A DNA stretch of 12,173 nucleotides, from NCBI GenBank assembly GCA_945483525.1, contig CALYRV010000055.1:1-12173 (forward strand), in the 5' to 3' direction. Positions 1,379 to 12,173 of this stretch are shown here, piece after piece. Within the stretch, counting starts at the first letter, position 1; every line of letters starts with the position of its first letter. Both the position numbers and the translations under genes were made by a program. Source of the DNA: an uncultured Verrucomicrobiota bacterium. Its GTDB lineage: Bacteria > Verrucomicrobiota > Kiritimatiellia > RFP12 > UBA1067. Below the pieces are notes generated by a model. That model did not search any database. It saw only the letters and a program-made list of their open reading frames with translations, and had not been told where the DNA came from.

Positions 1379-2422
1379 ATGGAAGTCGGTTCTTTAGCTA
1401 AACATCGGGCTTATCTTGGAAAACCCTGCAAGAAGGGGAGTGTGGTGCCGTTCCCTTGTGATCCTGCGAAGATCTATCGTATGCAGGTCGAGGGACTTGT
1501 GAAGCGGCTTAAGGCGATTCATTGTAAGGACGTGGTTGTCGGGCTCTCCGGCGGACTCGACTCGACGCTGGCGCTCCTCGTTTGTGTTGGTGCATTCGAG
1601 AAGTTGCGGCTTGACAGGCAGGGCATTCACGTCTATACGATGCCCGGTTTCGGTACCACCAAACGGACCAAGGGAAATGCCGAGCAGCTGTGCGAGGGAC
1701 TCGGACTCAAGGTAGAAACGATCTCGATCGTGAAGAGTGTCCGTCAGCATCTCAAGGACATCGGACACGACGGCAAGACGCCGGATGTTACCTACGAGAA
1801 CGCCCAGGCCCGTATGCGTACGATGATCCTCATGGACAAGGCGAACATGACCAATGGCATCGTCATTGGTACTGGAGACCTTTCCGAGATTGCGCTCGGT
1901 TGGTGCACATACAACGGAGATCACATGTCGATGTTCGGGGTCAACAGCGACGTCCCTAAGACTGTGGTCCGTAAGGTATGCCGCTGGTGGGCGGAAAGAC
2001 AGTTGGAGAAGTCAGTTGGAGTTGGAGAAAGTGGCGGCAAGAAGGCCGCGGAGGCGATTCTTGATATTATCGCGACGCCGGTGAGTCCGGAACTCGTGAA
2101 GGGGCAGATCACCGAGGATAAGATTGGTCCGTATGAACTTCACGACTTCTTCCTCTGGAATTTTATCGTCAACGAGATGGGTTCGAAGGATCTTCAGCGC
2201 GCTGCTGAGAAGTATTTCATTAAAGAGAAGAATGGACCTTCCGATCTTCAACTTCAACTCTCGCCTTCAACTATTTTCAAAACATTGAAAATCTTCATGC
2301 ACCGCTTCTTTACTCAGGCGTTCAAGCGCAATTGCGCTCCTGACGGCATCAAGGTGTTTCCGTTCGAGCTTTCGCTTCACGACTGGTGGATCCCCTCCGA
2401 TCTCGGAATCGTCAAGATCTGA
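1379..2422 (+). CDS. nadE: NAD+ synthetase, synthetase domain only (glutamine-dependent subfamily)
   Basis: The enzyme adenylates nicotinate adenine dinucleotide and amidates it to NAD+, the last step of NAD synthesis. The ATP-pyrophosphatase loop SGGLDS is at residues 57-62. It is followed by MPGFGTT (88-94), YENAQARMRT (139-148), GTGDLSE (164-170) and CTYNGDHMSM (176-185). PVSPEL is at 234-239, PYELHDFF at 251-258 and RFFTQAFKR at 309-317. These motifs match the synthetase half of two-domain glutamine-dependent NadE, not the short ammonia-dependent NadE. The N-terminal nitrilase-like glutaminase domain (roughly 270-300 residues in that family) is absent: only about 22 residues precede PFPCDP, where the synthetase half begins. 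Ammonia must be free or come from another subunit. Residues about 208-220 and 289-299 are encoded by heptamer-repeat cassettes and look like extra loop sequence. The start is set by a strong ribosome binding site. Confidence 0.9.
   Translation: MEVGSLAKHRAYLGKPCKKGSVVPFPCDPAKIYRMQVEGLVKRLKAIHCKDVVVGLSGGLDSTLALLVCVGAFEKLRLDRQGIHVYTMPGFGTTKRTKGNAEQLCEGLGLKVETISIVKSVRQHLKDIGHDGKTPDVTYENAQARMRTMILMDKANMTNGIVIGTGDLSEIALGWCTYNGDHMSMFGVNSDVPKTVVRKVCRWWAERQLEKSVGVGESGGKKAAEAILDIIATPVSPELVKGQITEDKIGPYELHDFFLWNFIVNEMGSKDLQRAAEKYFIKEKNGPSDLQLQLSPSTIFKTLKIFMHRFFTQAFKRNCAPDGIKVFPFELSLHDWWIPSDLGIVKI
2001..2037 (+). repeat. heptamer cassette 1, inside nadE
   Basis: AGTTGGA occurs at 2001-2007 and again at 2014-2020, separated by six bases. 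GTTGGAG follows at 2021-2027, and the cassette ends in GGCGG at 2033-2037. The spacing is 7-6-7-7. It is read in frame as residues about 208-220, where related synthetases have a short loop before the PVSPEL motif. Confidence 0.7.
2246..2273 (-). repeat. heptamer cassette 2, inside nadE
   Basis: On the plus strand CTTCAAC (2246-2252) is followed by TTCAACT (2253-2259), six bases, and TTCAACT (2266-2272). Read on the minus strand this is AGTTGAA-type with the same 7-6-7-7 spacing as cassette 1, and it continues into CGGAAG (2240-2245). It encodes residues about 289-299, a loop before the RFFTQ motif. Confidence 0.7.
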
Positions 2423-2435
2423 CACCATTCTGCCC

Positions 2436-2462
2436 CTACATCTTCAACCTACATCTACATCC
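2436..2462 (-). repeat. heptamer cassette 3, nadE-pgpA junction
   Basis: On the plus strand CTACATC occurs at 2436-2442 and 2449-2455, with TTCAAC between them and TACATCC at 2456-2462. The total is 27 bp in 7-6-7-7 spacing. It ends one base before the pgpA ATG at 2464, so it takes the place where a ribosome binding site would sit. Confidence 0.7.
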
Positions 2463-2463
2463 A

Positions 2464-2931
2464 ATGCGTAAGTTCATTCTTTTCGTCGCTTCTGGTTTCG
2501 GGCTTGGACTCGTTGCTCCGTTCGCGCCCGGCACCTTCGGGTCGCTTCCAGGAGTTGCACTTGCCTATGCGGTCTGCGCCTTGCCGCTGTGGCTGCAGAT
2601 GCCGGTGTGTCTCGGCTTCACGCTCTTGGCGATTCCGTTCTGCGATGCGGCGGAGAAGATCCTGCGAATCGTCGATGACGGGCGTATCACCGCGGACGAG
2701 TGGATGCTCTATCCGATCTCGTTCATCGGCATTCCACTGCTGGATCTCCCGTGGTGGTCGATGCTGATCTTCTTCTGCGTGGTCCGGGCCATTGATATCA
2801 TCAAGCCTTGGCCGGCGCGTCAGTTGCAGCGCATCCCCGGCGGCCGCGGCATCGTCATTGACGACTTCTTTGCGAATCTCTATTCCCTAGCGATCAACTG
2901 GATGATCTATCTAATGGCGTTTTCTTGCTGA
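2464..2931 (+). CDS. pgpA: phosphatidylglycerophosphatase A
   Basis: This 155-residue membrane protein should dephosphorylate phosphatidylglycerophosphate to phosphatidylglycerol at the inner membrane. Family marks are GLVAPFAPGTFGSLPG near residues 15-30, an acidic stretch DDGRITADEW at 71-80 (the region of the family's metal-binding Asp/Glu residues), and RAIDIIKPWPARQLQRIPGG at 108-127 followed by GIVIDDFFANLY (129-140). Hydrophobic segments around residues 3-20, 29-60, 84-112 and 138-154 fit the family's membrane topology. ATG 2464 was chosen because the family N-terminus begins there; the frame is open upstream to 2386 but that part overlaps nadE. The start is preceded directly by a heptamer cassette and has no Shine-Dalgarno. 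Its stop faces the stop of the convergent kinase gene across a 29-bp gap. Confidence 0.9.
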   Translation: MRKFILFVASGFGLGLVAPFAPGTFGSLPGVALAYAVCALPLWLQMPVCLGFTLLAIPFCDAAEKILRIVDDGRITADEWMLYPISFIGIPLLDLPWWSMLIFFCVVRAIDIIKPWPARQLQRIPGGRGIVIDDFFANLYSLAINWMIYLMAFSC

Positions 2932-2965
2932 AGCATGTGGTAATTGCCACGCATTCCCGTTCAGC
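2927..2965. terminator. possible bidirectional hairpin between convergent genes
   Basis: GCTGAA (2927-2932) pairs with TTCAGC (2960-2965), and inside it GTGG (2937-2940) pairs with CCAC (2947-2950). The outer arms contain the stop codons of pgpA (2929-2931) and of the kinase gene (2961-2963, minus strand). The inner arms are not contiguous with the outer ones and there is no T-run on either side, so a terminator role is only suggested by its position. Confidence 0.35.
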
Positions 2966-3845
2966 CGTAGGGACTGAGAAGGATTGAGGAGTTGCCTTCG
3001 GTCTCTCGAGGTGGGAAATCCGCTCCGCGTTCGACGGCTTGCGCAATGGAATACACTTCGTTCCAGTTGGAAAGGCGTCCGTCACGGTTCTTCACGAGCA
3101 TCGCTTCCAGCATCTGGGCGAAGCCCTTGGACAGTTCAGGACGATAAAGGCGTGGGTCCTTCGCCTGGACCGTCTCGTTGCAATGAGCACGCATTGAGGC
3201 GTCGTTATCATATCCGGGGAATAGTACTCTCCCTGTAGCTAAATGATAAAGCGTTGCGCCAAGTGAATAGATGTCGGTACGGCAGTCGAGTTCGACGTCG
3301 GCATAAACTTGCTCTGGCGAGATGTATGCAGGAGTTCCGGAGATATGTGAAGCCTGCGCCAGTTTGCCTTCCTTGAATTCATAGCGATAGGAGATTCCGA
3401 GGTCGAGGATCTTGATCGTGCCTTCGGAATTAATCATAATGTTCTCGGGCTTGATGTCGCAATGGACGATGCCGTGATCGTTCCAGGCAAAGCTGAGTGC
3501 AGAGGCGATTGATTGTGCGATTAGAAGACAGTCTGTCTCGCAGACTCGATGACGACGGATGATATAGTCTGAAAATGTATATCCGTCGACATATTCCATC
3601 ACTATGTACCAACGTCCGTCTACGTTGTCGAAATCATAAGCTTGAACGATCCCCGGATGGCGGATTTCCTCCATGCGGCGTTCTTCGAGCTTGAGCGCAC
3701 GCACCTCTTCTCCGCAGGTGGAGAGGTTGTCGTTCAGTATTTTTATTGCAACGATACGGTTGTTGACGTTGTCGAAGGCTTTCCAGACGGTCGACATGCC
3801 GCCTGCGCCAATTTTTTCAAGAATTGTCAGTCCTGGAATTTCCAT
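2961..3845 (-). CDS. soluble Ser/Thr protein kinase (PknB/Hanks type)
   Basis: The 294 residues are almost entirely one eukaryotic-type kinase domain. The glycine loop GAGGMS is at 13-18, the ATP-binding Lys35 lies in VAIK, and the hinge region is VMEYVDG at 82-88. The catalytic loop is HCDIKPEN at 128-135, the metal motif is DLG at 148-150, and SGTPAYISPEQ (activation segment to APE-like end) follows. Cys replaces the Arg of the usual HRD, so this is a non-RD kinase; DLG replaces DFG. All catalytic residues needed for activity appear present. No transmembrane segment or extracellular sensor domain follows the kinase domain, so the protein should be cytoplasmic. The ATG lies inside the end of the response-regulator gene (19-bp overlap), suggesting coupled translation and a role with that regulator. 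Its substrate cannot be read from sequence. Confidence 0.92.
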   Translation of the reverse strand: MEIPGLTILEKIGAGGMSTVWKAFDNVNNRIVAIKILNDNLSTCGEEVRALKLEERRMEEIRHPGIVQAYDFDNVDGRWYIVMEYVDGYTFSDYIIRRHRVCETDCLLIAQSIASALSFAWNDHGIVHCDIKPENIMINSEGTIKILDLGISYRYEFKEGKLAQASHISGTPAYISPEQVYADVELDCRTDIYSLGATLYHLATGRVLFPGYDNDASMRAHCNETVQAKDPRLYRPELSKGFAQMLEAMLVKNRDGRLSNWNEVYSIAQAVERGADFPPRETEGNSSILLSPYG

Positions 3846-5254
3846 TCGTTAAGTTTCCTATGGAGGGTCCTGCGCGATATGCCAAGCGACTCGGCGGCTT
3901 TCGACTTGTTGCCGCCAGCGGCTTCTAAGGCCGCGAGTATCTGCTGCTTTTCAGCTGCAGCAAGAGTGGTGGGGTTGTGCGCTGGAGTTGAAGATGCGGA
4001 GGAAGCTGGTTCCTTTGTACTTCTGTCGGTTGAATCAGAAGGGTGGGTGTTCGAAATGAGGGGCGTTCCCGGTGTTCCTTTGATGTCGGTAGGGAGGTCA
4101 TCAGCCGTAATCATCTCACCGGTTGATAGCACAACCATTCTTTCAATGACGTTTCTCAGTTCGCGTACATTGCCTGGCCAGGGGTAGTGCTCTAGCGCCT
4201 CCATTGCGCCTGTGGAGAAGCCTTTGACTTGGCTGGAATATTCTTTTGCGAATTCTTTGAGAAAGCGTGAGGCGAGCAATGCGATGTCGCCGGGACGCTC
4301 ACGAAGAGGGGGAAGATCGATCGGTATCACGTTCAGGCGGAAGAACAAGTCTTCCCTGAACTTACCTTCAGCGACCATTTCCTTGAGGTTCTTATTGGTC
4401 GCGGCGACAAGGCGGAAATCGACGGGGGTTTCTTCGCTTGAGCCGAGCCGCCGGATGGATTTGGATTGAATGGTTCTGAGCAGTGCTATTTGCGTCGGCA
4501 TGTCGATTTCGCCGATTTCATCAAGAAACAAGGTGCCGTCCGCGGCTGATTCAATGCAACCTTTCTTGCCGTCCTTGAGTCCGCCGGTAAATGTTCCTGG
4601 GACGTATCCGAAGAGTTCTGATTTGAGCAGGTCGCCTGAGAACGCCGAGCATTCCACGGCGATGAATGGATTGTTCTTGCGCGGAGATAGATCGTGTAGC
4701 GCTTTGGCTACAAGTTCCTTGCCGGTTCCGCTTTCGCCTTCAATCAAGACGGTCGCAGGAGTAGGCGCGATGCGGCGAATGAGTTGGTAGACGCGTTCCA
4801 TTGCCGGTGACGATCCGGTGATGGCGTTGAGGCCGCTTTTCGCTACCAGCTTCGATTCAAGGTCTGCCACTTTTTTCTCGAGTGCACTTACCTTGATGGC
4901 GCGTTCGATGCGGGTGCGGAGCTGGGAGAAGTCGGTGATCGGTTTGGTGATGAAGTCGTCCGCGCCTTCTTTCATCGCGGCGACGGCGAGATCGATTTCG
5001 CCGAAGGCGGTAATCAGGATGGCGCCAACGGAGGGGAATTTCGCCTTGGCGGATTTGATGAGTTCGACGCCGTTCATCACCGGCATCTTGTAGTCTGTAA
5101 GAATCAGTGCGACATCTGGGTTCCGGTCGAGTACGGAGAGTGCCAATTCGGGATCTGCCGCGGTGAGACAGTCGTATTCTCCGCTAAGAATACGTGACAT
5201 CGTGTCTCGTGTCATTTTCTCGTCGTCGACGATTAGTATCTTTGGCTTGGACAT
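3827..5254 (-). CDS. NtrC-family sigma-54-dependent response regulator
   Basis: The 475-residue protein has three domains. A receiver domain (about 5-120) carries acidic D10/D11, phospho-acceptor D54 in LTDYKMP, T82 and K104. An AAA+ sigma-54 activator domain (about 145-375) has Walker A GESGTGKE at 173-180 and Walker B LFLDEIGE around 242-249, with arginine-finger region RLNVIPIDLPPLRERPGDI. A Fis-type helix-turn-helix (about 440-471) includes NKSKAAESLGISRRTLHRKL. When phosphorylated it should activate RNA polymerase carrying sigma-54. The sigma-54-contact loop reads GTFTGG at 220-225 instead of the usual GAFTGA; the central FTG is kept. The linker at about 393-430 is rich in Ser, Thr and Pro. 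The partner histidine kinase lies just upstream in the operon. No obvious Shine-Dalgarno precedes the ATG; a heptamer cassette fills the 42-bp gap. Confidence 0.95.
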   Translation of the reverse strand: MSKPKILIVDDEKMTRDTMSRILSGEYDCLTAADPELALSVLDRNPDVALILTDYKMPVMNGVELIKSAKAKFPSVGAILITAFGEIDLAVAAMKEGADDFITKPITDFSQLRTRIERAIKVSALEKKVADLESKLVAKSGLNAITGSSPAMERVYQLIRRIAPTPATVLIEGESGTGKELVAKALHDLSPRKNNPFIAVECSAFSGDLLKSELFGYVPGTFTGGLKDGKKGCIESAADGTLFLDEIGEIDMPTQIALLRTIQSKSIRRLGSSEETPVDFRLVAATNKNLKEMVAEGKFREDLFFRLNVIPIDLPPLRERPGDIALLASRFLKEFAKEYSSQVKGFSTGAMEALEHYPWPGNVRELRNVIERMVVLSTGEMITADDLPTDIKGTPGTPLISNTHPSDSTDRSTKEPASSASSTPAHNPTTLAAAEKQQILAALEAAGGNKSKAAESLGISRRTLHRKLNEWKFQD

Positions 5255-5265
5255 GGAAGATGAAT

Positions 5266-5291
5266 AGTTGAAAAATTAGGAGGCGGGAGGC
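5266..5291 (+). repeat. heptamer-like cassette 4, kinase-regulator junction
   Basis: On the plus strand AGTTGAA (5266-5272) is followed by five bases, then AGGAGGC (5278-5284) and GGGAGGC (5285-5291). It shares the AGTTGAA unit and a GGCGGG stretch with the other cassettes but is more degenerate. It fills most of the 42 bp between the histidine-kinase stop and the response-regulator start. Confidence 0.45.
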
Positions 5292-5296
5292 AAGAC

Positions 5297-6355
5297 TTAT
5301 TTCAAAGCTCGAACTCGGCGTTCGATGCGCGGGAGCCGGATGGTGAATATTGCGCCTTCTCCGGGCGCGGACTCCACATCTATTCGGCCGCCGTGGTCGC
5401 GGACGATCCGTTGAGAGATCATGAGACCGAGCCCGGTGCCGTGTTCCTTGGAAGTGCGGTACGGCTCAAAGAGATGGGCGATTTGTTCCGCGGTCAATCC
5501 GGCTCCGCTGTCGTGAAAAGCAATGAAGACGTCATTGTCGTCGGATCCGATGGTGATGTCAATGCTCCCGCCGTCCGTCATCGCTTCGAGCGAGTTTTTG
5601 ATCAGATTGAAGAAAACTTGCTCCATTTGTGCGGGGTCGAGTGCAACCGAAGGAAGCGCGCCAGGCATGTTGACGGACACGGTGATCTGGCGGTCTTCCA
5701 GTTGCGCCTTTAGGGTCTCAAGACAGTCCTTGAGCGGCGATGCAGGGGAGCCCGGCATCAGATTGGGGCGTGATGGCTTGAGTGCTTGCAGGAAACCTTT
5801 GAGGATTCCATCGAGCCGCTTGATTTCGGATTTACAGATGGCGATTGATTCTTTGTCGCCGGGATTCTGTTCGAGAATCTGTAGATTGAGCGAAATCGCA
5901 TTTAAGGGGTTGCCGATCTCGTGGGCGACTCCGCTGGCAAGGTCTCGGACGGCTTGGGTCGCTCCGGCGCGAAGTTCTTCCTCGCTTTTCTCGCGATTCG
6001 CGGTAATATCTGTAAGTTTTACCAGCGTCTCGTCCCCTCCCATCGGGAAAGTCTGTATCTCCAAGAACCTGTGCTCGGGATAAGAAATTTCGACTTCGCG
6101 CTTGGATGATTTGCAAAGAGGAATGTCTAGCGTCGGCAGAATGTCCTCGGGTTTCATGCCGAGCAGCCGTTCTGCCGCATGGTTCGCCCACCTCGGCGAA
6201 CCAGAGGCGTCCAGCACCAGATATCCGTCGCTGGTCGTGTGGAAGATCATCTCGGAGAATGCGAGCTCGTCGGTTACGAGTGAATACTGCTCGCGGAGAT
6301 GCTCGGCATCAAGCTTCCCGATGTGCTTCCTTACACCTTTAAAAAAGTCCTTCAT
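5297..6355 (-). CDS. cytoplasmic PAS sensor histidine kinase (NtrB-like)
   Basis: The 352-residue protein has no membrane segment, so it senses an internal signal. A short N-terminal helix is followed by a PAS domain (about 30-118, with SDGYLVLDASGSPRWANHAA at its core). The dimerisation and phospho-acceptor region has GVAHEIGNPLN with the phosphorylated His145. The ATP-binding domain has the N-box NLIKNSLEAM (250-259), the G1 box DSGAGL (282-287), the F box FEPY (296-299) and the G2 box GTGLGL (306-311). It should phosphorylate the sigma-54 activator encoded 42 bp downstream, as NtrB does NtrC; that pairing is inferred from adjacency. The start ATG touches a run of five heptamers and lacks a Shine-Dalgarno. 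The ligand of the PAS domain cannot be told. Confidence 0.93.
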   Translation of the reverse strand: MKDFFKGVRKHIGKLDAEHLREQYSLVTDELAFSEMIFHTTSDGYLVLDASGSPRWANHAAERLLGMKPEDILPTLDIPLCKSSKREVEISYPEHRFLEIQTFPMGGDETLVKLTDITANREKSEEELRAGATQAVRDLASGVAHEIGNPLNAISLNLQILEQNPGDKESIAICKSEIKRLDGILKGFLQALKPSRPNLMPGSPASPLKDCLETLKAQLEDRQITVSVNMPGALPSVALDPAQMEQVFFNLIKNSLEAMTDGGSIDITIGSDDNDVFIAFHDSGAGLTAEQIAHLFEPYRTSKEHGTGLGLMISQRIVRDHGGRIDVESAPGEGAIFTIRLPRIERRVRALK

Positions 6356-6359
6356 ATGC

Positions 6360-6394
6360 TAATCACTAATCACGAACCACCAACCACGAATCAC
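6360..6394 (-). repeat. heptamer cassette 5, paaK-kinase junction
   Basis: On the plus strand five 7-base units run without a break: TAATCAC (6360-6366), the same at 6367-6373, GAACCAC (6374-6380), CAACCAC (6381-6387) and GAATCAC (6388-6394). On the minus strand each unit begins GTG. The last unit contains the paaK stop codon (6391-6393), and the array reaches to within four bases of the histidine-kinase ATG. Confidence 0.8.
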
Positions 6395-7704
6395 TTCCTC
6401 CTATTGTCAATCACCCGCTTGATTTTGCCCTCGCTGCGCGGGAGGGAGCCTGGGGCGACGAGGGTGAGTTTCGGAGAAAGACCGATGATCTGCTTGACAG
6501 CGGCGAGAACCTTCTTGCGCAGGACTTCGAGGGTGCGGATGTTGTCCGAGAAGGCCTCGGCCTTGATCTCTACCTTGATCTCGAAGATGTCCAGCGTTTC
6601 GGTCGGCGTGATGATGATCTGATAGTGCGGCTCGACTTCGGGAACGGTGAGAAGTGCGGTCTCGATCTGACTCGGGAACACGTTGACGCCGTGGATGATT
6701 AGCATATCGTCCGACCGCGCCTTGATGCGGTCCATGACGCGCGCGGTGCGTCCACATTTGCACGGCTCGGTGTGGAACCGAGTGAGGTCGCGGGTGCGGT
6801 AACGGACCATCGGGGTGCCCGTGCGGTCGAGCGTGGTGAAGACGAGTTCGCCTTCTTCGCCGTCCGGCAGCGGTTCGAGTGTTTCGGGGTCGACAATCTC
6901 GGGGTAGTAGTGGTCCTCCCAGATGTGGAGCCCCGGGGTCTCATTTTCGCAGTACTGGCAGCTGCCGGCGACGCCGGGACCGGAGACCTCGGTAAGACCG
7001 TAGATGTCATGGGCGATGATGCCAGTGCGCGATTCGATCTTCGCACGCATCTCGTCCGTCCACGGTTCGGCGCCAAAAATGCCGTGGCGGAGCTTCGTGT
7101 CGCGGCGGAAGTCGATTCCGAGTTTCTCGGCGACCTCGATGATGTGGAGGAAATAGGAGGGCGTGCAGCAGATCGCGGTTGTTCCGAGGTCACGCATCAG
7201 CATGAGCTGCTTCTCGGTGTTGCCGGCCGAAGTCGGTAGCACTGCGCATCCTAGGTGCTCTCCGCCATAGTGGAGACCGAGGCCGCCGGTGAAGAGTCCG
7301 TAGCCGTAGGACACCTGTAGCACGTCTTCGTTGGTAATTCCGTACATCGCCAGGGTCCGTGCGGTAGCATCCGCCCACACCTCGATGTCGTTCTTGGTGT
7401 TTGGAATGCAGATGGGTTTGCCAGTGGTGCCGGATGAGCAATGGAAGCGGACGATCTCGTTCATCGGTGCTGCCGTGAGACCGGTGGGATACTCGTCGCG
7501 GAGGTCGGTCTTCTTCATGAACGGAAGCTTCGCGATGTCCTTGAGCGTGACGATGTCACGTGGCTTAACGCCTTTCTCATCGCAGCGGCGGCGGAAAAGC
7601 GCGACGCGCTCGTATTCGTAGGTGACGAGTTTCTGCAGTTTCGCCAGCTGAAGGGCGCGGAGCTCCTCGACGGGCATGTAATCGGGTCTAGATATTGAGT
7701 TCAC
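6391..7704 (-). CDS. paaK: phenylacetate-CoA ligase family enzyme
   Basis: The 437-residue protein has the normal family length and belongs to the adenylate-forming enzymes. The phosphate-binding motif SSGTTGKP is at 90-97, the A5-like motif YGLTE at 235-239, the RYRTRD segment at 301-306, and the C-terminal SEGKIKR at 424-430 has Lys427 as the likely catalytic lysine. C249, C252, C315 and C317 form two Cys pairs as seen in PaaK proteins. It should activate phenylacetate or another arylacetate with ATP and CoA. In anaerobes such genes often serve salvage of arylacetates into aromatic amino acids by way of 2-oxoacid:ferredoxin oxidoreductases, but none is present in this window. The start is GTG at 7704; ATG at residue 10 is an alternative. 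A heptamer cassette occupies the upstream gap and no Shine-Dalgarno is visible. Confidence 0.93.
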   Translation of the reverse strand: MNSISRPDYMPVEELRALQLAKLQKLVTYEYERVALFRRRCDEKGVKPRDIVTLKDIAKLPFMKKTDLRDEYPTGLTAAPMNEIVRFHCSSGTTGKPICIPNTKNDIEVWADATARTLAMYGITNEDVLQVSYGYGLFTGGLGLHYGGEHLGCAVLPTSAGNTEKQLMLMRDLGTTAICCTPSYFLHIIEVAEKLGIDFRRDTKLRHGIFGAEPWTDEMRAKIESRTGIIAHDIYGLTEVSGPGVAGSCQYCENETPGLHIWEDHYYPEIVDPETLEPLPDGEEGELVFTTLDRTGTPMVRYRTRDLTRFHTEPCKCGRTARVMDRIKARSDDMLIIHGVNVFPSQIETALLTVPEVEPHYQIIITPTETLDIFEIKVEIKAEAFSDNIRTLEVLRKKVLAAVKQIIGLSPKLTLVAPGSLPRSEGKIKRVIDNRRK

Positions 7705-7713
7705 GGTAAAATA

Positions 7714-7748
7714 AGTAATGAGTAATGAGCAACGAGGAATCGCGGGCG
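7714..7748 (+). repeat. heptamer cassette 6, hisC-paaK junction
   Basis: On the plus strand AGTAATG occurs at 7714-7720 and 7721-7727. AGCAACG follows at 7728-7734, AGGAATC at 7735-7741 and GCGGGCG at 7742-7748. It fills the 46-bp gap between the hisC stop and the paaK GTG. The AGGAATC unit followed by GCGG closely resembles the ends of the hisC and U32 cassettes. Confidence 0.8.
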
Positions 7749-7752
7749 ATTC
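7737..7752. other. perfect 7-bp palindromic hairpin at the hisC 3' end
   Basis: GAATCGC (7737-7743) and GCGATTC (7746-7752) are exact reverse complements with a 2-base spacer; part of the stem is made by cassette 6. A T-rich stretch (7754-7759) follows on the plus strand, antisense to the operon, so as a terminator it would act on antisense transcripts only. With a 2-base loop it may instead form as a cruciform or an intermolecular duplex. Confidence 0.45.
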
Positions 7753-8800
7753 ATTTTTTACTGATTTTGTCTAGTGCGGAGAGGAGCTTCTTCATCTGTG
7801 CGGGCGTGCCGATCGTAATCCGAAGACGGTCGCCCGTCTTCGGACCCCTAAAGTAACGCACGAAGATGTTCCGTTCCTTGAGCGCGGTGAAGACGATCTC
7901 GGCCCGGTTTCCCTTCGGTGGACGCGCGAAGACGAAGTTCGATTCGCTCGGGATCACGTCCCAGCCACGCTTCACTAGTTCGTTGGTGAACCGCTCGCGG
8001 GTTTCGATAATCGCCTTGACGTTCTTCTTCATCCAGGCCACGTCCCTGACCGCGGCGAGCGCCACGGCCTGGGCGATGGCGTCGACGTTGTAAGAGTCCT
8101 TCACCTTGACGAGCGCATCAATCAGTTCCTTCGGTCCAACACAGTAACCGACGCGGAGCCCCGCGAGCGAGAAGCTCTTGGAGAAGGTGCGCATCACGAG
8201 GATGTTCCGGTTGTCCTCCGCGATCGCGAGCTTCATACAGTTGCCGCGGGCGAAGTCGCCGTACGCCTCGTCAATCAGTACCACGCCCTTGAACTTCTTC
8301 GCAAAAGCGGCGATCGCCGCGGGCTCGACCCATTCTCCAGTCGGCGCGTTGGGATTCGTGAGCAGGAAAAGTGAAATCTTCCGCCATTCCTTATTCCTCG
8401 TCCCTCTTTTCTCGCCGATTGCGCATCCCCGCCATTCGACGTCGCGGATCGCCGCGAGTGTCTTGTAGAGCGAGTAGCTTGGATCGAGAGATCCTATTGA
8501 TTCGTCGTTTTCTACGAAGGTCTTAGCACTGAGCGCGAGGATTTCGTCCGATCCGTTGCCGACGAAGATATGGTCAGGCGTCGTGTGGTGCAGTTTCGCG
8601 AGCGCTTCGCGGAGCGCAGTGCAGTCGGGATCGCAATATCGACGCAATCGTTCGAGATCGAATCGCTTGAGCACTTGAGCGCATTTCGGAGATGGCGGAT
8701 AGGCGTTTTCGTTGGTGTTGAGCTTAACTACGTTCTTCGTCTTCGGTTGTTCACCGGGGATGTAGCCCGCGAGCTTACGGACATGTCTGGCGATCATCAT
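7751..8800 (-). CDS. hisC: histidinol-phosphate aminotransferase
   Basis: The 349-residue fold-type I PLP aminotransferase has NTNENAYPPSP (28-38), GNGSDE (81-86), TNPNAPTG (148-155), IDEAYGDF (176-183) and the PLP lysine K208 in TFSKSFSLAGLRVGY. These are typical of HisC, which converts imidazole acetol phosphate and glutamate to histidinol phosphate; related enzymes also act on aromatic amino acids, so an aromatic aminotransferase role is possible. No other his gene is in the window. The segment between DVEWRGCAI and ISLFLLTNPN (about 129-141) is encoded by a heptamer cassette, replacing the usual linker before the NPNNPTG-like motif. The gene starts ATGATG four bases after the stop of the upstream lipoprotein gene, so the two are probably cotranscribed. 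paaK follows after 46 bp. Confidence 0.92.
   Translation of the reverse strand: MMIARHVRKLAGYIPGEQPKTKNVVKLNTNENAYPPSPKCAQVLKRFDLERLRRYCDPDCTALREALAKLHHTTPDHIFVGNGSDEILALSAKTFVENDESIGSLDPSYSLYKTLAAIRDVEWRGCAIGEKRGTRNKEWRKISLFLLTNPNAPTGEWVEPAAIAAFAKKFKGVVLIDEAYGDFARGNCMKLAIAEDNRNILVMRTFSKSFSLAGLRVGYCVGPKELIDALVKVKDSYNVDAIAQAVALAAVRDVAWMKKNVKAIIETRERFTNELVKRGWDVIPSESNFVFARPPKGNRAEIVFTALKERNIFVRYFRGPKTGDRLRITIGTPAQMKKLLSALDKISKK
8378..8412 (-). repeat. heptamer cassette 7, inside hisC
   Basis: On the plus strand the 7-base units are CTTCCGC (8378-8384), CATTCCT (8385-8391), TATTCCT (8392-8398), CGTCCCT (8399-8405) and CTTTTCT (8406-8412). On the minus strand the last two units read AGGAATG then GCGGAAG, the same ending as U32 cassette 11. 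It is translated as part of an inter-motif loop of HisC. Confidence 0.7.
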
Positions 8801-8804
8801 GATG

Positions 8805-9158
8805 TTACTTGACTAGTTCTGCGCTGGTGTGCAAGGCGTAACGTTTGAGTAAAATGAGCATTACCTTTTCGTCGGTAGAGTGAGAGACTACGTTGTTGGC
8901 CTTGTAGGATCCGTCTTTTAGCATGGCCAGACGTAAAATCTTCATGTTGTTCTCGAGTGTAACCGTTTGGGAAAACAACGAGCAGCAATGCTTGTTCGGA
9001 CGATCTGGATTGCCGGAGGCGATGGGAATGAAACTTAACAGATACCAGCCGGTGTTCTCCACGTCAATCGTCTTATGACCGCCTTCGTCGGAGATGTGGT
9101 ACGTAGCGCAACCGCCGAGGAGTAGAGCCAATGATATGACGGTGAGGATCTTCTTCAT
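8805..9158 (-). CDS. small lipoprotein of unknown function (paralogue 2)
   Basis: This 117-residue protein has a clear lipoprotein signal: a positive start (MKK), a hydrophobic core and the lipobox LGGC with Cys17 as the likely lipidated residue. The mature part contains ENTGWYLLSFIPIASGN at about 34-50, then a short alpha/beta-looking region without enzyme motifs that I recognise. The motif GWYL-x3-IPI-x2-GN is shared with the gene just upstream, so the two are diverged tandem paralogues. The ATG overlaps the upstream stop as ATGA, a strong sign of coupled translation. hisC follows four bases after the stop. It is probably anchored in the inner or outer membrane facing the periplasm. I do not recognise a named family. 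Confidence 0.82.
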   Translation of the reverse strand: MKKILTVISLALLLGGCATYHISDEGGHKTIDVENTGWYLLSFIPIASGNPDRPNKHCCSLFSQTVTLENNMKILRLAMLKDGSYKANNVVSHSTDEKVMLILLKRYALHTSAELVK

Positions 9159-9544
9159 TTCAATTCTCCGGACAGCTGTTTCTCACGGTATGTGAGGATG
9201 TAAGGGATCGGAACTGGTATGTTTACGAACGGAAGATTGAAAAGTACAGAATCGTAATTGTTCCAGACCAGATTCTCCACCTGATATTGTTGTCTTTCGG
9301 CTTCCTTGAAGAGTCGGCGCTGCAGCAAGTCCATTTGCACATCGTTTCTGAAAATGACGAAGGGGGTATATGCGTCCTCTGCTGCATTGCCGCAGACAAT
9401 AGGGATGGCGCCGAAAAGATACCATCCGAAATTCGTTACCAGAACATGATTTTTCATGCCAGGCTCCCTGCTGTTGGAGATTGAAAAGCATCCCGTGAGA
9501 CATATTGTCACGCATAGCAGGATAGGAGCTAAAAACTTATTCAT
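9155..9544 (-). CDS. small lipoprotein of unknown function (paralogue 1)
   Basis: From ATG 9544 the protein has 129 residues with a lipoprotein signal MNKFLAPILLCVTICLTGC; the lipobox LTGC gives Cys19 as the lipidated residue. The mature part has VTNFGWYLFGAIPIVCGN, matching the motif of the downstream paralogue, and ends with NIPVPIPYILTYREKQ. An ATG six bases upstream (9550) is in frame and would add two residues. I prefer 9544 because a TATAAT box lies directly before 9550 and transcription would begin near 9544, possibly giving a leaderless mRNA. It is the first gene of the minus-strand operon. No enzyme motif or known family is recognised. Confidence 0.8.
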   Translation of the reverse strand: MNKFLAPILLCVTICLTGCFSISNSREPGMKNHVLVTNFGWYLFGAIPIVCGNAAEDAYTPFVIFRNDVQMDLLQRRLFKEAERQQYQVENLVWNNYDSVLFNLPFVNIPVPIPYILTYREKQLSGELK

Positions 9545-9550
9545 GCACAT

Positions 9551-9580
9551 ATTATACTATATACACGCGTGCGCGCGCAA
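9551..9580 (-). promoter_or_regulatory. candidate promoter of the minus-strand operon
   Basis: On the minus strand TATAAT (9551-9556) is a perfect -10 box. TTGCGC (9575-9580) lies 18 bp upstream as a weak -35. Transcription would start around 9544, at or next to the second ATG of the lipoprotein gene, which leaves no room for a Shine-Dalgarno. Confidence 0.5.
9558..9579. other. 22-bp alternating purine-pyrimidine tract (Z-DNA prone)
   Basis: Every base from 9558 to 9579 alternates pyrimidine and purine, starting as TATATACAC and ending as a GCGCGCGCA run. Such tracts can flip to Z-DNA under negative supercoiling. It forms nearly the whole spacer of the candidate minus-strand promoter and lies in the divergent region before lysA. 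Confidence 0.7.
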
Positions 9581-9602
9581 GTGAGGATTTTTATGGTTAT
9601 GC

Positions 9603-9631
9603 TTGCATTTTAGGATGAATTTCGGTAATAT
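9603..9631 (+). promoter_or_regulatory. lysA: candidate lysA promoter
   Basis: TTGCAT (9603-9608) and TAATAT (9626-9631) are spaced by 17 bp and lie 22 bp before the lysA ATG. The matches to the sigma-70 consensus are only moderate. AAGGG at 9644-9648, five bases before ATG 9654, is a weak ribosome binding site. Confidence 0.4.
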
Positions 9632-9653
9632 ATTCATTCAAAAAAGGGTTGAT

Positions 9654-10934
9654 ATGTCTAGACGACTTCCTTTTGACAAAAAGTGGATTGAAAACACAGC
9701 TGCCAAGTGGCCGACACCATTTCATGTTTATGACGCAGAGGCAATTCGTGCGAATGCCCGTCGCCTGAAGAAGGCGTTTGCGTGGAATGCGGGATTTCGC
9801 GAGTTTTTCGCGGTCAAGGCGACGCCGAACCCGCACCTTATGAAGTTGCTAAAGGAGTTTGATTTCGGATCCGACTGCTCCTCGATGGCCGAGCTCGTCC
9901 TTGCCGAGAAAGTTGGTAATGACGGAGAGCACATCATGTTTACGTCAAATGATACCCCTGCCGAGGAGTTCGTCAAGGCTTGGGAACTAGGTGCGGTAAT
10001 CAATCTTGACGATATCTCGCATTGGGATTTCCTCGTTTCCACCCTCAACTCGAGAAATCTTAACCCTGATGCTGATTCCTGGTCCGACAGGATCATGTGC
10101 TGCCGATATAATCCCGGCCCCTTGAAGGGCGGTAACGCCATTATCGGCAGGCCCGAGGAGGCCAAGTACGGTCTTACCCGTGATCAGTTGTTCGAATGCT
10201 ACGCGAGGATGCGCGATGCTGGTGTAAAGCGGTTCGGCCTTCACGCCATGGTCGCCTCGAATGAACTAGATCCCGAGTACATCATTGACACCGCAAAAAT
10301 GCTGTTCGCCCTTGTAGGTGAACTCCATGACCAGCTTGGCATCGACTTCGAGTTCGTCAACATCGGCGGCGGCATCGGTATCCCCTACCGTCCCGACCAG
10401 AAAGCGATGGATCTCGAGTACGTCGGCGACGGGATCCGCAGGGCGTATGAGGAGTTGGTTGAGGACAAGGGGCTGAAGCCGATTCGGCTCTTCATGGAGT
10501 GCGGACGCTGCATCACTGGCCCCTATGGCTATCTGGTCGCCAAGGTCCTGCACATTAAGAACACCTATCGGATGTATGCCGGACTCGACGCTTGCATGTC
10601 CAATCTGATGCGTCCCGCCCTCTACGGCGCCTACCACGAGATCGTCGTTCCCGGCAAGGAGAATAGCGGCGATACGACGGTCTATGACGTTACCGGGTCG
10701 CTTTGCGAGAACAACGATAAGTTCGCGATTCAGCGCGTACTCCCGGTTTTGGAGCCCGGCGACTACGTCGTCATTTGCGATGCCGGAGCGCACGGACACG
10801 CTATGGGATTTCAGTACAATGGCAAGCTCCGAAGTGCCGAACTCCTCCTTGAGAAGGATGGTTCGGTCCGTGAGATCCGTCGCGCTGAGACGCTTGACGA
10901 TTACTTCGCAACGCTTGATTTCAATGGACTGTGA
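9654..10934 (+). CDS. lysA: diaminopimelate decarboxylase
   Basis: The 426-residue protein is a fold-type III PLP decarboxylase that makes L-lysine from meso-diaminopimelate. FFAVKATPNPH (51-61) carries the PLP lysine K55. VNIGGGIGIPY forms the phosphate-binding glycine loop, FMECGRCITGPYGYLV a substrate-side strand, and GSLCENNDKFA holds the conserved Cys at the dimer active site. The C-terminal motif DAGAHGHAMGFQYNGKLR has GAHGHAM where the classical form reads GAYG, as in a distinct LysA subgroup; other decarboxylases of the family are less likely. Start ATG 9654 fits the family N-terminus and has AAGGG five bases upstream; the frame is open from 9603. About nine residues near 134-143 look extra and coincide with a degenerate heptamer cassette. 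The stop overlaps the start of the U32 gene by 11 bp. Confidence 0.92.
   Translation: MSRRLPFDKKWIENTAAKWPTPFHVYDAEAIRANARRLKKAFAWNAGFREFFAVKATPNPHLMKLLKEFDFGSDCSSMAELVLAEKVGNDGEHIMFTSNDTPAEEFVKAWELGAVINLDDISHWDFLVSTLNSRNLNPDADSWSDRIMCCRYNPGPLKGGNAIIGRPEEAKYGLTRDQLFECYARMRDAGVKRFGLHAMVASNELDPEYIIDTAKMLFALVGELHDQLGIDFEFVNIGGGIGIPYRPDQKAMDLEYVGDGIRRAYEELVEDKGLKPIRLFMECGRCITGPYGYLVAKVLHIKNTYRMYAGLDACMSNLMRPALYGAYHEIVVPGKENSGDTTVYDVTGSLCENNDKFAIQRVLPVLEPGDYVVICDAGAHGHAMGFQYNGKLRSAELLLEKDGSVREIRRAETLDDYFATLDFNGL
10054..10080 (-). repeat. degenerate heptamer cassette 8, inside lysA
   Basis: Read on the minus strand, AGGAATC (10074-10080) is followed by AGCATC (10068-10073), AGGGTTA (10061-10067) and AGATTTC (10054-10060). 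This is the 7-6-7-7 spacing of the clearer cassettes, but the units share little beyond AG at their start. It encodes residues about 134-143, where I expect a shorter loop. Confidence 0.4.
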
Positions 10935-12173
10935 ACTGCTTGCCCCTGCGGGCGACTTCGAAACCGCGCTTGCGGCGTTTGACGCGGGTGCGGATGCCGT
11001 TTATTGCGGGCTCTCCGACTTCTCGGCCAGGGCTTTCGCGACAAACTTTTCGATTGCGCACCTCAAGGAGCTGATCCGCTACGCGCACGCCGTCGGTGAC
11101 ACCGACTCTCGTCCGTCCGCCCGTCGCGTCTACGTGACCTTCAATACCGTCATTGACGAGACGAACTTCGAGGAGGCGATTGACCGGCTTTCTCGGCTTG
11201 AACAGGCGGGACCGGATGCCATAATCGTCCAGGATCTCGGCGTCGCGCGTATCTGTCGCAAGTTCTTTCCCGGCCTCACGTTGCATGCGTCGACTCAGCT
11301 TGTTGCTCACAATCTTGAAGGCGTCATGGCGCTCAAAGAGATCGGCTTCACCCGCGTGGTGTTGGCGCGTGAGCTTTCGTTTGAGGAGATCCGTCAGATC
11401 AAGCAACGTTGCGGAGACGTCGAACTCGAAGTCTTCATCCACGGCGCCTTGTGCTATTCGATTTCCGGTCTCTGTCTCTATGGGGCGATGGAGAAGGGGC
11501 GCAGCGGCAATCGCGGGAAGTGTCCGTACTGCTGCAGGCAGGAGTTGAAGTGCGAAGTTGAAGAAAGGAGCGGTCGCAATTCCGCTCTTCAACTTTCGAA
11601 TTCAACTCATCATTATCCGTTCTCCATGAAGGACCTGCGGCTTGGCGAGGATGTGAAGAGTCTCGCTGAGATCGGTGTCGCCTCGCTCAAGATCGAGGGG
11701 CGCATGAAGAGTCCGCTCTATGTCGCGAGCGTCACCCGCTGGTACCGTCAGTTCTTGACGAGTAGCGACGAGGCGGGAGTCAGGAGCGAGGAGTCGCGGA
11801 AGGTGACCTCTTCTGATCTCGAGACGGTCTTCTCCCGCCGCACGACCGAACTCCGCTTCAATCCTACCAACTATCAACTATCAACTACCAACTCTTCCCC
11901 TATTGACCCAGTCTCCCTCGGGCATCTTGGAACGCCGATCGGCACCGTCAAGCGCATTACGCGCGATCGTGAGGGAAGGGCGTGGCTGCGGTTCCACACG
12001 ATGCGGGCGCTGGAGAAGCATGACGGACTCCAGTTCGACGCGCTGACGGACGAAGGGCGTCACTTCGGGTTTGGCATTCAGGAGATGCGGCAGGCGATTT
12101 CTCGTGCGCCTGTCTTTGAGGTTGCGCCAGGCGAAGATGTGGAGATCGCGCTTCCGGAGCGAGAAGTTTCAGG
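10924..12173 (+). CDS. peptidase U32 family protein (partial, 3' end outside window)
   Basis: The frame opens at ATG 10924 inside the lysA 3' end and stays open to the window edge, giving 416 residues. ELLAPAGDFETALAAFDAGADAVYCGL (4-30) and LHASTQ (120-125) are the typical U32 N-terminal barrel segments. VFIHGALCYSISGLCL (170-185) and SGNRGKCPYCCR (194-205) hold cysteines (C177, C184, C200, C203 or C204) that in studied U32 proteins bind an iron-sulfur cluster. KIEGRMKSPLYVA (256-268) follows. Despite the name, studied members act in RNA hydroxylation (RlhA) or O2-independent ubiquinone hydroxylation (UbiU/UbiV), so a tRNA/rRNA-modifying role is likelier than proteolysis. Three regions, about 207-230, 279-293 and 315-324, are encoded by heptamer cassettes and look like added loops. 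The 11-bp overlap suggests coupling to lysA. Confidence 0.9.
   Translation, partial: MDCELLAPAGDFETALAAFDAGADAVYCGLSDFSARAFATNFSIAHLKELIRYAHAVGDTDSRPSARRVYVTFNTVIDETNFEEAIDRLSRLEQAGPDAIIVQDLGVARICRKFFPGLTLHASTQLVAHNLEGVMALKEIGFTRVVLARELSFEEIRQIKQRCGDVELEVFIHGALCYSISGLCLYGAMEKGRSGNRGKCPYCCRQELKCEVEERSGRNSALQLSNSTHHYPFSMKDLRLGEDVKSLAEIGVASLKIEGRMKSPLYVASVTRWYRQFLTSSDEAGVRSEESRKVTSSDLETVFSRRTTELRFNPTNYQLSTTNSSPIDPVSLGHLGTPIGTVKRITRDREGRAWLRFHTMRALEKHDGLQFDALTDEGRHFGFGIQEMRQAISRAPVFEVAPGEDVEIALPEREVS
11542..11573 (+). repeat. heptamer cassette 9, inside the U32 gene
   Basis: AGTTGAA occurs at 11543-11549 and 11556-11562 with six bases between. It is followed by GAAAGGA (11563-11569) and ends in GCGG (11570-11573). 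It is the left arm of an inverted pair with cassette 10 and lies just after the CPYCCR cluster motif. Confidence 0.75.
11582..11608 (-). repeat. heptamer cassette 10, inside the U32 gene (inverted partner)
   Basis: On the plus strand TTCAACT occurs at 11588-11594 and 11601-11607 with six bases between, preceded by CCGCTC (11582-11587). Its reverse complement matches cassette 9 in order: an identical 8-base block, a diverged 6-base spacer, an identical 8-base block, and AGCGG, with only five bases missing. The two can fold into a hairpin with an 8-base loop (11574-11581). Confidence 0.75.
11758..11802 (+). repeat. heptamer cassette 11, inside the U32 gene
   Basis: GGGAGTC (11775-11781), AGGAGCG (11782-11788), AGGAGTC (11789-11795) and GCGGAAG (11796-11802) follow each other without a gap. 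Related ACGAGTA and GCGACGA units precede them (11758-11771). The end is the same as in the hisC cassette. It is translated in frame as residues about 279-293. Confidence 0.7.
11868..11895 (-). repeat. heptamer cassette 12, inside the U32 gene
   Basis: On the plus strand CAACTAT (11868-11874 and 11875-11881), CAACTAC (11882-11888) and CAACTCT (11889-11895) form four uninterrupted 7-base units. On the minus strand the units read AGTTGRT-like, and a GCGGA tail follows at 11850-11854. It encodes residues about 315-324, rich in Asn, Thr and Ser. Confidence 0.8.

Follow-up and report, generated by a model that had tools for sequence, protein, structure and literature searches.

Heptamer repeats, intervening sequences and their protein

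Heptanucleotide repeats of cyanobacteria go under the term STRR, and the Avd protein of diversity-generating retroelements works with reverse transcriptase. Here we compare these and other described systems with a family of short tandem-repeat arrays that lie in gene junctions and inside genes of a 12,173-nt stretch of DNA (hereafter the window; contig CALYRV010000055.1, assembly GCA_945483525.1) from an uncultured gut bacterium of the Kiritimatiellae, phylum Verrucomicrobiota. Rickettsia palindromic elements are, like some of these arrays, palindromic in-frame inserts in protein genes, but they belong to fixed sequence families and are not tandem heptamers. The nearest precedent is the intervening sequence (IVS) of Coxiella, in which two or three tandem heptamers, their number variable between strains, stand just before the S23 gene, and which is bordered by complementary sequences (PMC4990558). 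In several phyla, arrays of the kind found in the window enclose genes of the same protein family, PF05635 (23S_rRNA_IVP or S23, here IVP), and we consider it probable that the arrays are arms, hairpins without an open reading frame (ORF), and remnants of IVS-type mobile elements.

The 23S rRNA IVS that carry an S23/IVP gene, as in Leptospira and Coxiella, resemble the elements described here in their complementary borders, small size and protein family (PMC4990558). In contrast, the present elements lie outside rRNA, in operon junctions and protein loops, their arms are long heptamer or octamer arrays with genome-specific units, and ORF-less forms occur. Inserts with IVP are also reported in rRNA genes of candidate phyla radiation (CPR) bacteria (PMC11270868). 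The PF05635 protein is described as being without known function, and a Xanthomonas member of the family as a homopentamer (PMC4990558). Avd resembles PF05635 in sequence and structure (PMC10053308), whereas reverse transcriptase (RVT_1) matches occur in only 3 of 12 Kiritimatiellae genomes related to the window.

Heptamers are reported to be over-represented in bacteria, and the repeats of cyanobacteria (Calothrix, Nostoc) and Xanthomonas share with those studied here the heptamer unit, its degeneracy and a mostly intergenic placement; the Xanthomonas GGGAATC repeats form 70 and 75 convergent pairs in two genomes (PMC4692102). No gene is linked to these repeats in the portions of the literature examined, and Kiritimatiellae differ from them in having several units per genome, varying from genome to genome, and many in-gene copies. 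The Beggiatoaceae TAACTGA repeats are likewise heptamers at junctions, some of them in ORFs, but they consist of a single unit and are proposed regulator sites (PMC4679880). Among the open-literature matches listed, no general link of PF05635 genes to heptamer arrays was found, which is weak evidence of novelty.

Most IVP genes lie between arrays, usually inverted

At locus L070, a small gene for a PF05635 protein lies between two GGAATG arrays in inverted orientation. There are 26 matches to this family over the cut-off, in 10 of the 12 Kiritimatiellae genomes, and the DNA of 21 of them was examined under a strong-array rule (16/21 matches or better, no more than 250 nt away on each side). 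A period-7 or period-8 array is present on both sides in 14 of the 21 loci and in 0 of 400 random segments. Across the phylum, 199 of 288 Verrucomicrobiota genomes sampled have a PF05635 match over the cut-off; at 29 loci from among the best-scoring matches, the shared period that fits best is 7 in 23 cases, and nine loci reach 16/21 in both flanks. Plasmid matches come from 28 records, 16 of which were examined, and arrays flank the gene on both sides in every one of these (15 with period 7 and one with period 8; scores 14-21 of 21). These plasmid loci belong to Spirochaetota, Bacteroidota, Bacillota, Cyanobacteriota and Chloroflexota, and 11 cyanobacterial plasmid IVP genes are flanked by heptamer-type arrays.

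We pooled 66 loci and left out L233 (short flank), L234 (weak match) and two without a stop-free frame, giving 62 labelled loci, some of which are one junction in related genomes (e.g., L231/L232, L225/L226, L237/L228/L230 and L252/L229). Arrays of the same period stand on both sides in 49 (42 with period 7, seven with period 8) and neither period was assigned in 13, while the same flank rule is satisfied by 3/796, 4/362 and 8/400 random segments. Among 50 elements, one of which (L286) was added by hand, the arms are inverted in 42, direct in seven and undecided in one. The distance from an end of the protein match to the start of the arm is about 32-34 nt, and arms are, by a generous measure, about 7.5 copies long. 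Array density is higher in stretches of IVP-rich genomes, with 16 period-7/8 arrays in 284 kb of ten IVP-rich genomes and four in 353 kb of ten genomes without IVP matches (binomial p = 0.0024). We thus regard the association between arrays and PF05635 genes as strong, and hold this with high confidence.

The initial annotation of the window had suggested a search for a linked recombinase, reverse transcriptase or polymerase gene. A linked gene does exist, one that the annotation had not named: the PF05635 gene between arrays, present at other loci but not in the window; reverse transcriptase, with RVT_1 in 3 of the 12 genomes, was rejected as a general partner. A diversity-generating retroelement was also rejected, RVT_1 being absent from 9 of the 12, although these are drafts and such absence is soft.

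One junction seen empty, with arrays only and with a full element

Thirty loci were read upstream of speE-like genes; one was cut short and two had another upstream gene, leaving 27 for comparison, with the IVP check made by profile. The upstream gene ends alike in all of them. Twenty hold no array in their gap of 0-39 nt; three have arrays only (L379, L380 and L389; 53-149 nt, L380 with a masked stretch); and four have array, IVP gene and array (L372, L373, L376 and L388; 525-659 nt). The SpeE proteins of one empty-site and one full-site genome are 96% identical. The series represents one junction in one bacterial family, and L372 and L373 come from near-identical genomes. The array-only state resembles the junctions of the window. 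The right arm of L388 is an octamer array that is itself repeated in 57-base blocks, a higher-order repeat.

The region upstream of a second gene was followed at 32 loci, three of them too short. IVP is present in four, an array pair without IVP in one, and no array in 24, several of which have a different upstream gene. At L354, upstream of this second gene, inverted octamer arms (CACAGAGA-type) are separated by ~500 nt in which no IVP match was found, and they may enclose another cargo.

Arrays of the window

All ten coding sequences scanned in the window have Pfam matches, to aldose epimerase, NAD synthase (NadE), PgpA, protein kinase, sigma-54 regulator, histidine kinase, AMP-binding ligase, class I/II aminotransferase (here called HisC), pyridoxal phosphate (PLP) decarboxylase and peptidase U32. 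The best relatives identified were draft genomes of Kiritimatiellae and the like, and the titles of many refer to ruminant gut samples. The repeat segments sit in and between these protein genes as follows, where the period-7 (p7) score is the percentage of positions matching the base 7 on (p6 and p8 for steps of 6 and 8), and percentiles refer to window segments of the same length.

2001..2037, plus strand: degenerate repeat of a 13-mer x 2 (13-mer at 1996-2021, score 45; p7 23%), in-frame NadE loop cassette 1
2246..2273, minus strand: TTCAAC-type repeat of step 6 (p6 59%, p7 33%), in-frame NadE loop cassette 2
2436..2462, minus strand: CTACATC/TACATC repeat filling the nadE-pgpA junction (p6 67%, p7 40%; best of p6-8 at the 99.7th percentile)
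5266..5291, plus strand: weak heptamer array between the histidine-kinase and sigma-54 regulator genes (p7 53%, 98.6th percentile)
6360..6394, minus strand: clear heptamer array of the AATCACT/AACCACC family, period 7, 5.3 copies (p7 82%, 100th percentile), occupying the whole junction between the AMP-binding ligase and histidine-kinase genes
7714..7748, plus strand: clear heptamer array of the AGTAATG family, 4.4 copies, between hisC and the AMP-binding ligase gene (p7 61%, 99.5th percentile)
8378..8412, minus strand: GGAATAA/GGAATG heptamer array, in-frame hisC loop cassette (p7 61%, 99.5th percentile)
10054..10080, minus strand: weak segment in the PLP-dependent decarboxylase gene, a doubtful member (p7 45%, 95.3th percentile)
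11542..11573, plus strand: left arm of an ORF-less hairpin cassette in the U32 peptidase gene, not clearly periodic (85.6th percentile)
11582..11608, minus strand: right arm of the ORF-less hairpin in the U32 peptidase gene, not clearly periodic (79.1th percentile)
11758..11802, plus strand: degenerate heptamer array in the second loop of the U32 gene (p7 50%, 98.9th percentile), a loop of variable length among orthologues
11868..11895, minus strand: clear heptamer array of the CAACTAT family in the third loop of the U32 gene, 4.3 copies (p7 86%, 100th percentile)

The repeat at 2436-2462 runs up to the ATG at 2464, which is our choice of start codon. The arms at 11542-11608 form one hairpin of 28 nt with 79% complementarity and an 11-nt spacer (folding z -5.3); within the window, complementary borders were seen as a tight hairpin at this place only.

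The initial annotation had described twelve arrays of 7-base periodicity, and six of these are real or probable (those starting at 6360, 7714, 8378, 5266, 11758 and 11868). Among the others, three repeat at steps of 6 or 13 bases, two make up the one hairpin and one is weak. Tandem, degenerate and dispersed 7-base units in the manner of STRR are thus seen in 6 of the 12 segments, some of them weak. The idea that the elements form a single class whose unit varies, placed both in gene junctions and inside genes, is supported. Its proposed common features fare less well. A shared 7-6-7-7 spacing holds loosely, because several of the segments are not of period 7, are hairpin arms or are weak, and a fixed element length finds no support. 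The purine-strand tail GCGG or GCGGAA is at background level, occurring in 134 arrays of related genomes 20 times at the 3' end and 22 times at the 5' end (21.2 expected); the window's own count, 6/12 at the 3' end and 1/12 at the 5' end, was made with the earlier boundaries, which take in the GCGG. What had been taken for fixed orientation is better read as inversion, since for 43 of 163 array calls an inverted partner lies no more than 150 nt away, compared with two at random places (the calls count both arms, and the stretches were partly picked for arrays).

Arrays and loop cassettes change between close relatives

Eighteen arrays of genome G002 could be placed in its close relative G003, at matching sites whose flanks are mostly 95-99% identical. 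Unit order differs between the two, length often differs, and one G003 array has no counterpart in G002; the stretches compared were partly picked for arrays. At one site in U32, the related loci L004 and L002 carry unrelated cassettes, and at the third U32 loop, where the window has its array at 11868-11895, some orthologues have arrays of other units. An intergenic site in L035 and L031 is alike at its outer ends and different inside. These outer ends, GGTATTATACC/GGTATAATACC (L035 ~13510-13600, L031 ~12080-12440), are near-palindromic and contain a -10-like TATAAT ahead of ATG, with differing insides in the two close genomes.

The initial annotation had named conservation of the segments as ordinary protein sequence as evidence against it. 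The comparison with orthologues found the opposite, as few parts of NadE, HisC and U32 vary as much as these segments do. Among 120 HisC and 120 NadE homologues, compared at the protein level, the HisC loop that holds 8378-8412 in the window is a cassette site in homologues as well, the NadE loop at 2001-2037 is different in most of the NadE homologues listed, and the HisC loop and both NadE loops hold many unrelated, repeat-like peptides. With P0032 left out of the HisC set, inserts at core identities of at least 97% are less than 40% identical in 20% of 59 HisC pairs and, for the two loops, in 1% and 2% of 105 NadE pairs; at 93-97% core identity, the values are 61% of 88 HisC pairs and 73% and 86% of 424 NadE pairs, pairs not being independent. 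The two NadE loops often change separately. Of 5449 NadE pairs whose cores are 85% or more identical, 115 have both inserts alike, 345 have one alike and one different, and 4135 have both different, with the rest between.

Whole loop peptides are swapped between near-identical proteins, as in the HisC pair P0059/P0073, which has unrelated inserts despite two differences across 329 core residues. Homologous recombination was rejected as the cause of the HisC swaps, as differences are not crowded round the insert (12 pairs, from few clusters of relatives). The NadE pair P0305/P0348 is a counter-case, with four of its five differences within 10 residues of the insert.

About three of the HisC loops of 30 family members have period 7 (L195, L196 and L207), and L218 gave no match. 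No period-7 NadE loop was seen in the order, where the loops are mostly short (18 of 30 loci read). The HisC loop of L199 is a pure ACACCT hexamer run, encoding the peptide TPTPTP, so other repeat types also enter this site.

Period 7 and 8 arrays in related genomes

An excess of period-7 arrays over shuffled sequence had been proposed as a check, and periods 7 and 8 do exceed chance. In 80 related loci (1.165 Mb), the strictest cut-off yields 35 period-7 and 17 period-8 arrays, compared with 0, 3, 6 and 2 for periods 5, 10, 11 and 13, and one first-order Markov copy gives 0 and 0 for periods 7 and 8. Periods 6, 9, 12 and 15 are also raised (17, 19, 16 and 16), as expected from coding sequence, and so is period 14 (24), which is twice 7. 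In 400 kb of G001 that were not picked for arrays, periods 7 and 8 have 21 and 15 arrays, compared with 0, 1, 0 and 2 for periods 5, 10, 11 and 13. Escherichia coli K-12 had zero period-7 arrays in 200 kb at three cut-offs.

Arrays occur on both strands. By a crude gene caller, 16/40, 23/49 and 35/70 lie inside coding sequence; random placement would give 33.2, 38.3 and 60.1, which indicates a preference for gaps and gene edges. Six hairpins tested fold far better than their shuffles (z -5.3 to -8.0). Pairs of arrays that share 9-mers make up 36% within G002, 48% within G003 and 9.4% within the unpicked G001, as against 3.7% between genomes, the G002 and G003 figures being inflated because their stretches were partly picked for the CAACT pattern. 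Words are shared with the IVP arms of the same genome by 27/43 G002 arrays and 18/40 G001 arrays, and with the arms of the other genome by 20/43 and 5/40; as so many G002 arrays match G001 arms, this sharing says little. Flanks shared around arrays were listed for 50 matches (100 and 205 in all), many of which are nearby arrays or overlapping flanks.

Origin of the arrays

Under the reading that we favor, a full element consists of an array of heptamers, or sometimes octamers, a gene for a PF05635 four-helix-bundle protein, and an inverted array. Elements are located where insertion is tolerated, at operon junctions up to the next start codon or in frame in enzyme loops, and the choice of unit would drift through slippage and through exchange among the arrays within a genome. 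Either by itself or together with host factors, the IVP protein might move or maintain the element; that it makes or moves the arrays is conceivable, though we doubt it. For the window's own arrays we infer a likely status as ORF-less forms or remnants of IVS-type elements, an inferred step because the window lacks an IVP gene.

The main competitor, which we judge unlikely though worth considering, is that these are ordinary heptamer minisatellites, arising by slippage anywhere and surviving where tolerated, with inverted partners made by template switching and IVP genes merely landing nearby. The higher-order repeats and the copy-number shifts between G002 and G003 do resemble slippage or unequal exchange, both period 7 and period 8 occur, and a polymerase footprint is the hypothesis cited for bacterial heptamer over-representation (PMC4692102). 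However, 49 of the 62 labelled IVP loci have arrays to either side of the gene, which random segments rarely do, and slippage in one array predicts neither a ratio of inverted to direct arms of 42 to 7 nor the swapping of whole cassettes. Selection on regulatory elements (terminators, ribosome-binding sites or G-quadruplex sites) would fit the window arrays that fill junctions up to start codons and the Beggiatoaceae repeats, which stand just before start codons (PMC4679880), but it has a small probability in our view given that many arrays lie within coding sequence, arrays run on either strand, their units change from genome to genome, and 20 of 27 genomes have no array at the speE junction.

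Two further explanations are very improbable. One is that the arrays are palindromes of the repetitive extragenic palindrome (REP) and bacterial interspersed mosaic element (BIME) kind, moved by a REP-associated tyrosine transposase (RAYT, a Y1 transposase). They are indeed palindromic, dispersed and partly intergenic, and 11 of the 12 genomes have Y1_Tnp matches, but there is no fixed sequence, the arms being tandem heptamers whose units vary from array to array and from genome to genome, and G006, whose locus L019 carries arrays, is the genome without a Y1_Tnp match. RAYT was therefore rejected as the driver, and the arrays were not assigned to REP/BIME. The other, to which we give equally little credence, is that the enzymes themselves are selected for diverse, hypervariable loops. 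The NadE, HisC and U32 loops are the variable parts of the aligned homologues; yet by Pfam these are ordinary metabolic enzymes, similar arrays occupy non-coding junctions, and elsewhere in the order the NadE loops are mostly short.

Several observations weigh against an origin of the arrays in IVS-type elements. By the rule, 13 of the 62 IVP loci have no arrays, 7 of the 50 elements have direct arms, and the number of independent loci is smaller than that pooled because some are the same junction in related genomes. Both phage IVP loci looked at (L402 and L403) have no arrays beside them; these are phage records from human stool, and their PF05635-like genes may be Avd of a retroelement. G004 has arrays and no PF05635 match, and the stretches of IVP-free genomes still carry four arrays, with the absence of an IVP gene being soft in drafts of unknown completeness. 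No target-site duplication was seen in the few junctions read by eye. A setting of the period by the IVP clade is not supported, as at least three changes are forced, five occur on the tree and period 8 arises several times; period labels are nevertheless somewhat clustered on the IVP tree (14 changes, shuffled mean 18.4, as low in 1/200). Within the window, half of the segments depart from a clean period of 7, and a six-frame search of it with a profile of 59 IVP proteins found no PF05635 gene, which is why its arrays are not filed as full IVS-type members.

A broader and tentative proposal is that PF05635 proteins, as relatives of Avd, might make or spread repeats that are locked in length and free in sequence. 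The ends of such a mobile system would be any 7- or 8-base word in place of a fixed sequence, set in tandem, mirrored and rewritten in each genome. The cyanobacterial, Xanthomonas and Beggiatoaceae heptamers would then be products of such proteins and the rRNA IVS a special case. The bacterial heptamer excess has no agreed cause, and the full elements offer a possible origin. Tying PF05635 to heptamers makes both testable, as the protein gains a candidate substrate and the repeats a possible maker. The arrays also show a route by which metabolic enzymes can gain or swap peptide loops between near-identical proteins.

Neighborhoods of PF05635 genes

PF05635 is met in some CRISPR and restriction operons, and IVP genes within cas loci are reported (PMC3936711). 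As annotated, plasmid IVP genes examined here lie between the defense-type genes hsdS and hsdR (L286), between cas2 and cas1 (L297) and beside cas1 (L294), and others are near helicase and methylase or Swt1/DUF1156 genes (L287, L292, L295 and L296). The relative with a solved structure is 2rld, with five chains. Some PF05635 matches fall in open frames of ~470-750 codons (G002:C85, G003:C206, G009:C47, G039:C3, G017:C32, G310:C33 and G231:C10), so the arms and the IVP gene may in these cases be read through with their neighbors.

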